From the NCBI GenBank assembly GCA_902619615.1, contig CACNFD010000006.1, forward strand, positions 1-64,000: 64,000 nt of DNA. The letters are read 5' to 3'. Shown in pieces: positions 60,888 to 64,000 of this stretch (positions are counted from its first letter, which is position 1; every line of letters starts with the position of its first letter). The notes below the pieces were generated by a model that worked only from the letters and a program-made list of their open reading frames with translations, made no database searches and was not told where the DNA came from. A program made the translations under genes and the position numbers. This DNA comes from an uncultured SAR116 cluster alpha proteobacterium (GTDB lineage Bacteria > Pseudomonadota > Alphaproteobacteria > Puniceispirillales > Marisalimonadaceae).

Positions 60888-63782
60888 ATGAACGACCAAA
60901 GCTCTGACCAAAGCTTTCTTTCTGGTGCCAATGCTACCTTCATTAATGATTTGTATAAAGAATGGAAAGAAAACTCAAATTCAGTACCAAAGGAATGGGA
61001 TTTATGGTTTAAAACAAATGCAGACGACAATTTATTAGATGAAGGACCTAGTTGGGCTAAAAAAAACAGTAAGGTAATTGGAGCCATAGATACTGTTGAA
61101 AGTGTAAAAGCAGTTGCACGAGGAATAGCAGGAAAAGGCAATTTATCTGCTACAGATTTGAGAGCAGCAACAACCGACTCCATTAGAGCTATTATGCTTA
61201 TTAGAGCATACAGGATAAATGGACATCTTTTAGCTAAATTAGATCCACTCCATTTACAAGAACAGAACATTCATCCTGAACTAGATCCTAAAACCTATGG
61301 ATTTACTGATGATGACTGGGATAGACCAATATTTATAGATTATGTCCTAGGTATGGAGTCAGCCACCCTCAGACAAATTATGGAAATAGTAAAAGAGACT
61401 TATTGTGGTTCTATCGGAATTGAATTTATGCATGTTCAGGATCCAGCTCAGAAAGCATGGATACAAGAAAGAATTGAGTCTATTCGTAATGCTACAGAAT
61501 TCACTAATAGAGGTAAAAAAGCTATATATGAACGTTTAGTTGGAGCAGAGACATTCGAACAATTTCTTCACAAAAAATATGCAGGAACTAAAAGATTTGG
61601 ATTAGATGGGTCAGAATCAGTAGTACCAGCAATAGAGCAAATATTGAAACGTGGTAGCCAGTTAGGAATGAAAGAAGTTGTGATAGCAATGGCTCACAGG
61701 GGTAGACTCAACCTACTATACAATATTTTAAACAAACCTTTTCGCGCAATTATTTCTGAATTTTTAGGTAACCAGGCAAATCCAGAAGATGCTGGAGGTT
61801 CTGGAGATGTTAAGTACCACATGGGAGCTTCAGCTGATAGAGAGTTTGACGGAAAAACAGTTCACTTATCTTTGCAAGCTAACCCTTCACATCTAGAGGT
61901 TGTTGCACCAGTTGTAATAGGCAGAGTTAGAGCAAAACAAAACCAACACAATGATACGAATGACAGATTGTCTGTATTAGGAATTGTTCTTCACGGTGAT
62001 GCTGCTTTTGCAGGTCAGGGTATAGTCGCTGAAACTTTTGATTTCTCTGGACTTAGAGGTTATAGGACTGGCGGAACAATACATATAGTGGTGAATAATC
62101 AAATTGGTTTCACTACTAGCCCAAATTATTCTCGCTCTAGTCCTTATTGTACTGACGTCGCTAAAATGGTAATGGCTCCTATAATGCATATTAATGGAGA
62201 CGACCCAGAGGCAGTGGTTCATGCTTCCAGAATTGCTACTGAATTCAGGCAAAAATTTGCGTGTGACGTAGTGCTAGATATTATTAGTTATAGACGTTAT
62301 GGTCACAATGAAGGTGATGAACCGGCTTTTACTCAACCCTTAATGTATAAAACAATAGGTTCTCACGATAGTATAAGTAAAATTTATGCTCAAAAGCTTA
62401 TTAATCAGGGAATTATAACTCAAAAGGAAGCTAAAGACGAAGTCGAAAATCATAACAATTTTTTAGAAAAAGAATTTATAGCTGGCTCAAGTTACAAACC
62501 CAATAAGGCTGACTGGCTAGAAGGACAATGGTCAAACCTAAGAACTGCCCACGGTGACGCAAGAAGAGGTGATACTTCAGTTTCGACAGAAATCCTAAAA
62601 GAAATTGGTAAAGCAATTACTACTGTTCCAGAAGGTTTTCAAATCAATAAAAAATTATCAAGAGTTATAGATTCTCGTAAAAAAGCTATCGAGAGTGGAG
62701 AAGGAATTGATTGGTCTACTGCAGAACATCTTGCGTTTGGCTCTTTGCTTTTAGAAGGACATCCAGTAAGATTGTCTGGTCAGGATAGTGGTAGAGGAAC
62801 TTTTTCTCAAAGACACTCCGTCTTCATAGATCAAATTTCTGAAAATAGATACATTCCCTTAAATAATATAAAAGATAAACAAGAAACATTTGAAGTTATT
62901 GATTCACCATTGTCAGAAGCTTCCGTACTTGGGTTTGAATACGGTTATTCTTTGACTGAACCGACAGCCTTAGTCATGTGGGAGGCACAATTTGGAGACT
63001 TTGCCAACGGTGCTCAAGTTATAGTTGACCAATTTATTTCAAGCGGTGAAGCAAAATGGTTAAGAATGTCAGGCTTGGTAATGCTTTTGCCACATGGTTA
63101 CGAAGGTCAAGGACCTGAGCATTCATCAGCTAGATTAGAAAGATATTTACAGCTCTGTGGTGAAGATAATATGCAGGTGTTGAATTGCAGCACACCTGCA
63201 AACTATTTTCATGCTTTGCGAAGGCAACTTAAACGAGATTTTCGAAAACCTCTGATAATTATGACTCCTAAGAGTTTACTTAGACATAAAATGTGCGTAT
63301 CTAGTCTGTCAGATATGGGAGAACAAACTGCTTTTAGAAGAGTCATTAGAGACCCAAATATAAATCTTAAGGATAGTGAAATAAAAAGAGTAGTAATTTG
63401 TTCAGGTAAAGTATTTTATAATTTACTAGAAGAAAGAGAAAAAAGAAAAATTAATAATATTCGAATACTTAGACTAGAACAAATTTATCCTTTTCCTTCG
63501 AAAACATTAAAAGAAATGTTATCAAAAATCCCAAATGCTGAAGTCGTTTGGTGTCAGGAAGAGCCAAAGAACATGGGTGCATGGTTTTTTGTTGATAGAA
63601 GAATAGAGCAAGTACTAGTTGATATTAAAGCTAAGTTAACAAGACCAACTTATGTAGGTAGATTAGAAGCCGCTTCTCCTGCAACAGGTTCCTTTTCCAG
63701 ACACAACAAAGAGCAAAATGATTTAGTAAATGATGCTCTAAAATTGACCACAAAGAAAGCTAGCAGACATGCAGCAGAGTAG
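60888..63782 (+). CDS. sucA: 2-oxoglutarate dehydrogenase E1 component
   Basis: The thiamine-diphosphate subunit, 964 residues, of normal length. The N-terminal FLSGANATFINDLYKEWKEN tail that binds the rest of the complex is present; FLHKKYAGTKRFGLDGSES, AMAHRGRLNLLYNILNKP, the ThDP site HGDAAFAGQGIV...NNQIGFTTSP, CDVVLDIISYRRYGHNEGDEPAFTQP (in parts), SGQDSGRGTFSQRH, LPHGYEGQGPEHSSARLER and CQEEPKNMGAW are all intact. No lipoyl domain is fused to it. The E2 gene begins eight bases after the stop. Confidence 0.97.
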   Translation: MNDQSSDQSFLSGANATFINDLYKEWKENSNSVPKEWDLWFKTNADDNLLDEGPSWAKKNSKVIGAIDTVESVKAVARGIAGKGNLSATDLRAATTDSIRAIMLIRAYRINGHLLAKLDPLHLQEQNIHPELDPKTYGFTDDDWDRPIFIDYVLGMESATLRQIMEIVKETYCGSIGIEFMHVQDPAQKAWIQERIESIRNATEFTNRGKKAIYERLVGAETFEQFLHKKYAGTKRFGLDGSESVVPAIEQILKRGSQLGMKEVVIAMAHRGRLNLLYNILNKPFRAIISEFLGNQANPEDAGGSGDVKYHMGASADREFDGKTVHLSLQANPSHLEVVAPVVIGRVRAKQNQHNDTNDRLSVLGIVLHGDAAFAGQGIVAETFDFSGLRGYRTGGTIHIVVNNQIGFTTSPNYSRSSPYCTDVAKMVMAPIMHINGDDPEAVVHASRIATEFRQKFACDVVLDIISYRRYGHNEGDEPAFTQPLMYKTIGSHDSISKIYAQKLINQGIITQKEAKDEVENHNNFLEKEFIAGSSYKPNKADWLEGQWSNLRTAHGDARRGDTSVSTEILKEIGKAITTVPEGFQINKKLSRVIDSRKKAIESGEGIDWSTAEHLAFGSLLLEGHPVRLSGQDSGRGTFSQRHSVFIDQISENRYIPLNNIKDKQETFEVIDSPLSEASVLGFEYGYSLTEPTALVMWEAQFGDFANGAQVIVDQFISSGEAKWLRMSGLVMLLPHGYEGQGPEHSSARLERYLQLCGEDNMQVLNCSTPANYFHALRRQLKRDFRKPLIIMTPKSLLRHKMCVSSLSDMGEQTAFRRVIRDPNINLKDSEIKRVVICSGKVFYNLLEEREKRKINNIRILRLEQIYPFPSKTLKEMLSKIPNAEVVWCQEEPKNMGAWFFVDRRIEQVLVDIKAKLTRPTYVGRLEAASPATGSFSRHNKEQNDLVNDALKLTTKKASRHAAE

Positions 63783-63790
63783 ATGATTTA

Positions 63791-64000
63791 ATGAATAATA
63801 AAAATAAAATCATTCAAAAGCTTGCAATGCCCTCTGCTGCAAAGCTTATAGAAGAAAAAAAAATAGATATAAATACTATAATTGGTACTGGTGTTGATGG
63901 AAGAGTAACAAAAGGGGATGTTCTTCTTCACTTAAACTTGATTAAAAATAATAAATTAGAAGAAGAAACTTCTAAACCCAATAAAAATATTCTTAAAGGA
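63791..64000 (+). CDS. sucB: 2-oxoacid dehydrogenase E2 component, 5' part, starting at the subunit-binding domain
   Basis: Seventy codons are visible before the window ends. From ATG 63791, eight bases after the sucA stop, the product reads MNNKNKIIQKLAMPSAAKLI, then a full peripheral-subunit-binding domain (PSAAKLIEEKKIDINTIIG, GTGVDGRVTKGDVL). The domain normally follows an N-terminal lipoyl domain of about 75 residues and a linker; here there is no coding room for one, because sucA occupies the upstream DNA. A Lys/Glu/Asn linker follows, as before the catalytic acyltransferase domain. By position it is sucB. Either the lipoyl domain is absent, lies elsewhere in the protein, or is supplied by another E2. 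Confidence 0.8.
   Translation, partial: MNNKNKIIQKLAMPSAAKLIEEKKIDINTIIGTGVDGRVTKGDVLLHLNLIKNNKLEEETSKPNKNILKG

Follow-up and report, generated by a model that had tools for sequence, protein, structure and literature searches.

Results

Domain Organization of SucB

The window (the whole stretch of 64,000 nucleotides of DNA that was analyzed) ends inside the second of two neighboring genes, sucA and sucB (Table 1). When the open frame of sucB was followed on contig C6, the whole gene was found to span C6:63791-65080 and to encode 429 amino acids, so that the end of the window cuts it. The gene 3' of sucB was read, from its sequence, as a putative dihydrolipoamide dehydrogenase gene (lpd).

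Table 1. Coordinates of sucA, sucB and the features of SucB. Positions with the prefix C6 are given on contig C6; PSBD, peripheral-subunit-binding domain.
Feature	Position	Strand	Remarks
sucA, E1 of 2-oxoglutarate dehydrogenase	60888..63782	+	964 aa
sucA stop and upstream sucB start	63780-63782 and 63791-63793	+	8 nt between
sucB (E2), 5' part	63791..64000	+	codons 1-70 of 429
PSBD (E3-binding), ahead of lipoyl domain	63821..63925	+	PF02817
sucB codon 70 (GGA)	63998..64000	+	last base is first base of proposed internal Shine-Dalgarno sequence
Proposed internal Shine-Dalgarno sequence AAAGG	C6:64000-64004	+	ends 8 nt before ATG at C6:64013
Proposed internal sucB start ATG	C6:64013-64015	+	opens lipoyl domain
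SucB lipoyl domain (Biotin_lipoyl, PF00364)	C6:64019-64234	+	residues 77-148
SucB acyltransferase catalytic domain (PF00198)	C6:64388-65068	+	residues 200-426, 281.1 bits

Four Pfam families (OxoGdeHyase_C, E1_dh, Transket_pyr, and 2-oxogl_dehyd_N) matched SucA over their cut-offs, and neither a fused lipoyl domain nor an E2 catalytic domain was found in it by Pfam. Its TAG stop codon is followed by ATGATTTA and then by the ATG of sucB. In the 70 residues of SucB encoded in the window, Pfam detected a PSBD (E3_binding, cut-off 23.7; E 1.6e-11 and 44.6 bits for residues 11-45 of the whole protein, and 49.3 bits in a separate match at 63821..63925) and no lipoyl domain. Since this score lies well above the cut-off, the resemblance to a PSBD is not a matter of chance. 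An initial annotation of the window had described SucB as opening with a PSBD and lacking an N-terminal lipoyl domain, SucA as having no lipoyl domain fused to it, and the two genes as being eight bases apart; these observations were borne out.

E2 chains share a standard plan in which a lipoyl domain is followed by a PSBD and a catalytic domain, and the lipoyl arm visits E1, the active site of the core, and E3. SucB of the window departs from this order. Its lipoyl domain (66.9 bits against a Pfam cut-off of 22.1, E 7.3e-19) begins shortly past the window cut and carries an ETDK lysine motif that was invariant in 10 aligned relatives, and the protein contains the catalytic motif YDHRIIDG. The layout is thus PSBD-lipoyl-catalytic, with all three domains over the Pfam curated cut-offs, and no second PSBD was found by Pfam between the lipoyl and catalytic domains of the window's gene.

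Faced with 70 codons and no lipoyl domain among them, the initial annotation had proposed that the complex either borrows a lipoyl arm from another E2, in an OdhA-like or shared complex, or carries its lipoyl domain in an unusual place. Reading sucB past position 64000 bore out the latter: a lipoyl domain does lie further along the same gene, not in the normal arrangement but between the PSBD and the catalytic domain. A SucB without a usable arm, dependent on that of another E2, is very improbable, as the open frame continues into a lipoyl domain of its own, which scores over the Pfam cut-off and has an invariant ETDK motif. Furthermore, sucA and sucB are separate genes, no chain at the locus combines E1 and E2 catalytic domains as in OdhA, and the other E2 of the genome has the ordinary order. 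A borrowed arm and an E1-E2 fusion were both discarded on these grounds. The domains of SucB are permuted, none is missing and none is borrowed, and the gene is a real 2-oxoglutarate dehydrogenase E2 gene. Among representative permuted loci, sucA was present in 9/9 and lpd, recognized through a sequence motif, in 8/9.

The window's genome is a draft of 2.16 Mb in 59 contigs with a completeness of 99%. It contained five Biotin_lipoyl matches, including that in SucB. Two others belonged to a pyruvate-type E2 and to the E1-beta subunit of a pyruvate dehydrogenase, where the domain is N-terminal, and the remaining two were read as biotin-carrying proteins of carboxylases. E2 catalytic domains were found twice, and the non-SucB one, of the pyruvate type, is preceded by domains in the ordinary order. 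The gene for the E1-beta protein (L007:4875-6209, G000 contig C17) adjoins that of the ordinary pyruvate-type E2; pyruvate dehydrogenase E1-beta subunits with an N-terminal lipoyl domain are known in other alphaproteobacteria.

Distribution of the Permuted Order

SucB residues 1-153 were used as the query in a search of 136 genomes of the window's taxonomic order. A single match spanned PSBD and lipoyl domain in 39 of the 58 genomes of the window's SAR116 family, in 2/58 the sequence was interrupted by a contig end, and 17/58 had no SucB-type match. These 17 genomes yielded zero or weak matches, the best of which (6.3e-15) was at the level of pyruvate-type lipoyl domains, and were taken as incomplete genomes with sucB missing. 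For the 78 genomes of the taxonomic order outside this family, no spanning match occurred among those listed. The family consists of four genera (codes g1, g11, g12, and g13), and Pfam found the permuted order in relatives from all four. Relatives with a lipoyl domain first, which the initial annotation had named as evidence against its reading, do exist within the same taxonomic order, but in other families.

Custom profiles applied to the fetched loci (duplicates included) classified 67 as permuted and 83 as ordinary and left 4 without a detected PSBD; in none of the 67 permuted loci did the custom profile find a PSBD at the old place. Two of the four loci without a detected PSBD (L032 and L158) end at contig ends, and in the other two (L071 and L072) E3_binding was absent by Pfam as well. 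The latter (L071:3570-4784 and L072:3519-4700) are alphaproteobacterial SucBs from outside the window's taxonomic order, one of them labeled Geminicoccus, with lipoyl and catalytic domains; as in eukaryotic E2o, a PSBD was absent from both in a Pfam search at E 0.1. In other alphaproteobacteria, side-by-side lipoyl matches (G270:C4:44213-44818 and G142:C231:7576-8238) suggest E2 genes with tandem lipoyl domains, although in both pairs the upstream match was listed with in-frame stops.

When 385 genomes of the class were surveyed, the listed matches, which reach down to about 99 bits, included a spanning one solely for the window's own genome; that genome aside, no listed match started before profile position 47. 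A search of 398 genomes of the phylum at a strict limit of 1e-32 gave three matches, of which one was the window's own and two were confined to the lipoyl domain and its preceding linker. The non-window genomes shown in this search all belong to the same class, some being shared with the class survey, so that it adds little beyond the class. A permuted E2 of distant relationship, in other lineages, could have escaped these surveys. Of the 30 loci in the class whose PSBD matches scored best, 26 had the ordinary order and one was the window's own; the remaining three, with just PSBD and catalytic domain in frames starting at the locus edge, were taken as cut there.

In all, 39 distinct permuted sequences were obtained from four genera and many separate assemblies. 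Permuted loci occurred in 22 named records (L045-L066), titled SAR116 cluster, alpha proteobacterium, Pseudomonadota, or Proteobacteria; 19 carry isolate names of the AG- or SCGC type, taken here to denote single-cell genomes, although 9 of these 19 are titled MAG. Recurrence of the order in separate assemblies of many relatives indicated that it is not an assembly fault, which also excluded the deletion at the sucA-sucB junction that the initial annotation had allowed for. That assembly or binning joined a stray PSBD fragment to sucB, as might be imagined for a draft genome in 59 contigs, is vanishingly improbable in view of the identical order in all these sequences.

Phylogeny and Origin of the N-Terminal PSBD

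In a tree of lipoyl and catalytic domains (48 rows, PSBD left out), the 10 permuted rows formed one clade (support 98/95) inside the SucB tree, beside other families of the taxonomic order (support for this grouping 81/76). The tree requires three architecture changes, a number that would fit one permutation and two losses of the PSBD. The PSBD appears to have moved to the N-terminus a single time, in the common ancestor of this SAR116 family.

Two profiles were compared on the PSBDs of the 10 permuted rows: one built from 41 ordinary SucB PSBDs gave 39-59 bits, and one built from 11 pyruvate-type PSBDs, found in 15 loci examined, gave 15-29 bits. As a control, each profile gave the opposite group 25-27 bits on average. 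By these scores the N-terminal PSBD is of the SucB type, and its acquisition from a pyruvate dehydrogenase E2 was ruled out. In the permuted family, SucB residues 13-18 (window 63827-63844) read MPSAAK, MPSAFK, or MPAAKK; at the same site, ordinary SucBs of the taxonomic order and of SAR11 have SPAV followed by two mostly basic residues.

A second possible, if doubtful, origin is import of the PSBD from the SucB of another alphaproteobacterium after loss of the resident domain. The domain reads [ML]P[SA]A, which resembles the SucB PSBDs from other families in the class, many of them with this very form, more than it does the LSPAVRR of its own taxonomic order. Consistent with import, a profile of the permuted family scored at best 65.8 bits on SucB PSBDs of the other families of the class and 45.5 and 42.0 bits within the taxonomic order (two of four other genomes matched), and the two SucBs without a detectable PSBD outside the taxonomic order would be examples of such a loss. 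However, a domain of about 36 residues is too short for a firm tree, and [ML]P[SA]A may be the ancestral form, changed in other families.

Upstream Start and Selection on the PSBD

At the upstream start of sucB in the window, none of the motifs AAGG, AGGA, GAGG, and GGAG was present at start spacing. A Shine-Dalgarno-type signal was likewise lacking at this start in 38/39 sequences, and it provided no conserved column in the comparison of Met columns described below. Together with the short distance from the sucA stop (8-13 nt in 9 representatives), the lack of a signal suggested that the upstream start is probably coupled to translation of sucA. The first ATG lies 10-14 codons ahead of the PSBD match in 39/39 distinct permuted sequences. 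The end of sucA and the Ala-rich beginning of the PSBD (63740-63849) can pair as a hairpin over the upstream sucB start, with a z-score of -2.54 in the window's sequence, and such pairing was also seen in some near relatives. As z ranged from -2.77 to +0.93 across 16 folded sequences, the window's included, the hairpin was not conserved and was dropped as a candidate control element.

Uncorrected pN/pS values were 0.33 for the PSBD, 0.95 for the linker that follows it, 0.21 for the lipoyl domain, and 0.14 for the catalytic domain. At the protein level the PSBD is constrained by purifying selection, which implies that the long form of SucB is used. At one position in the first PSBD helix, 36 of 41 ordinary SucBs have Arg, and the 10 permuted sequences have Ala (7), Lys (2), or Phe (1); the basic residue next after it is Lys in 10/10 permuted PSBDs. 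An AlphaFold2 model was obtained with 14 sequences for a relative 97% identical to the window's SucB. Overall confidence was moderate (mean 68.9, pTM 0.49), with PSBD, lipoyl domain, and most of the catalytic domain fairly confident (block means of 75-80 pLDDT for residues 11-50, the PSBD) and pLDDT values below 50 for the linkers (residues 53-72 and 154-196) and residues 350-372 of the catalytic domain. We infer that the N-terminal PSBD would still bind E3, a role against which the replaced Arg of the first helix counts.

A Conserved Putative Initiation Signal Within sucB

The Met that opens the lipoyl domain was kept in 39/39 distinct permuted sequences, and exactly 8 nt before its ATG ends the sequence AAAGG (38/39) or AAGGG (1/39). 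The signal was analyzed in nine representatives with pairwise identities below 90%, whose kinship makes them less than independent. It lies in a linker (residues 49-74) without a single invariant column among the nine. Lys71 was encoded by AAG in all eight representatives that have Lys, and in the ninth an AGG codon yields AAGGG, keeping the signal; AAG is otherwise a minority codon, with 69/330 Lys codons in the representatives' genes and 268/1771 in the window's frames. Codon 72 begins with G in 9/9 though it encodes E, G, V, or D, and G-first codons account for 19.8% of the linker. Calculated duplex energies with the 16S tail ranged from -7.6 to -12.4 kcal/mol at the internal start, and medians in the window were -5.0 kcal/mol at 48 first ATGs and -2.7 kcal/mol at 371 internal ATGs.

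In a comparison of 39 Met columns of sucA, sucB, and lpd that were conserved in at least 7/9 rows (6/8 for lpd), nearly all rows carried a well-spaced signal at just three of them: the sucA start (8/9), the lpd start (7/8), and the internal Met of sucB (9/9), which was the strongest of the three with a mean of -9.4 kcal/mol. In 20,000 trials of codon shuffling within the linkers, the signal appeared in at most 5/9. In the frames of the window, it was found at 20/371 internal in-frame ATGs and at 19/48 first ATGs. Conservation of codons and signals can have other causes, as indicated by another Lys column of sucB that is AAG in 8/9 (among 18 such columns) and by one conserved internal Met of sucA with a signal in 6/9 rows. 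The codon, Met-column, and shuffle tests were aimed at the signal after it had been seen and were not blind. In a scan for synonymous conservation, the internal signal was absent from the 12 listed of 378 scanned segments, the amino acids at this site being variable.

In a bacterial study (PMC11005335), internal starts were likewise weighed by whether start codon and Shine-Dalgarno sequence are conserved. In sucB, an internal start codon with a well-spaced Shine-Dalgarno sequence was conserved in 39/39 sequences and in 9/9 representatives, and Met and signal at the lipoyl domain look like a selected internal start. The internal ATG may not be the ancestral start itself, since it is two codons closer to the VP.LGES motif than the starts of ordinary SucBs of the taxonomic order.

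Discussion

Two Proposed Products From One Gene

The constraint on the internal signal as RNA, next to that on the PSBD as protein, indicated that a short form of SucB is probably used in addition to the long one. We consider it likely, from the comparison of sequences, that the permuted sucB has two starts and encodes a long, docking E2 and a short E2 without PSBD. In this model, translation from the upstream start, by coupling to the end of sucA, would give the long chain of 429 amino acids (PSBD-lipoyl-catalytic), and the internal start a chain of 355 amino acids (lipoyl-catalytic). Existence of the short product is suggested by its conserved start signal. Both chains would join one core via their common catalytic domain, so that a mixed core is expected. 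E3 would be docked by the long chains alone, at the outer end of the arm, and the short chains would build the core and swing the arm without providing a dock. As judged from Pfam boundaries, linkers of the long chain measure about 50 residues from arm to core and about 30 from arm to E3 dock.

If docking is confined to the long chains, the relative use of the two starts would determine how many E3 sites a core has. That one bacterial gene makes docking and non-docking E2, with initiation setting the E3 sites of a mixed core, is in our estimate somewhat more probable than its opposite; placement of the PSBD before the lipoyl domain would, as part of the same reading, be what makes such a core possible.

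The single long SucB that forms the main competing explanation, with AAAGG-ATG as a ribosome pause site or a relic left by the former sucB start, appears unlikely. A pause would help PSBD and lipoyl domain to fold separately, and the long form is clearly needed in view of the purifying selection on the PSBD and the first ATG 10-14 codons upstream of it. In addition, ordinary SucBs of the taxonomic order start near the same place, many of them after purine-rich signals. A relic should, however, decay, whereas signal, spacing, and ATG have been kept amid a linker without an invariant column and with a pS of about 0.5-0.7, and a pause site would need no ATG at initiation spacing.

The number of E3 sites required per core is a standing question in work on 2-oxoacid dehydrogenase complexes. 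A natural permutation that has been kept across a family of marine bacteria indicates that the order lipoyl-PSBD-catalytic is not required, and the conserved internal start suggests that docking sites may be tunable through translation alone. A two-start gene would also be a workable halfway state toward an E2o without PSBD, as found in eukaryotes.

Comparison With Known Complexes

Among the open-licence papers listed, judged by title and beginning of abstract, none dealt with an E2 of permuted order or with one that has an internal start. An OdhA-type chain is not known to have a lipoyl domain of its own. Actinobacterial OdhA is described as combining E1 and E2 activities in one chain (PMC10415282); it resembles the window's system as an unusual arrangement of 2-oxoglutarate dehydrogenase domains, but the E1 and E2 of the window are separate and its E2 has a lipoyl domain of its own.

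In bacterial E2o, the PSBD docks E3 (PMC9974300). SucB of the window shares with it the same three domains, the catalytic and lipoyl motifs, and a position after sucA and before lpd, but differs in that its PSBD is first rather than second, with none in mid-chain, and in its conserved internal start. Eukaryotic E2o (DLST) lacks a PSBD, and MRPS36 acts as its E3 adaptor (PMC9974300). With a PSBD at its N-terminus, SucB of the window is not itself such an E2o; only the proposed short product, lipoyl domain followed by catalytic domain, would fit this architecture, and unlike DLST the gene keeps the PSBD on its long product.

Genes with two starts are known from bacteria, with long and short forms of CcmM and CheA and with infB as examples in passages of PMC11005335. 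No E2 appears among the two-start genes in these passages, and sucB and aceF occur 0 times in the main text. These genes are similar to sucB of the window in that an internal start leads to an N-terminally truncated product; for CcmM, anchoring falls to the long form, and the short one is structural. In mammalian pyruvate dehydrogenase, E2 and E3-binding protein are encoded by two genes and form a mixed core (PMC9974300). The arrangement proposed here would likewise be a core of mixed composition, with E3 docked by a fraction of the chains, but in this case from one gene with two starts and with a long form that retains the catalytic domain. If the model is correct, the permuted sucB would represent a one-gene counterpart of the mammalian E2/E3-binding-protein core.
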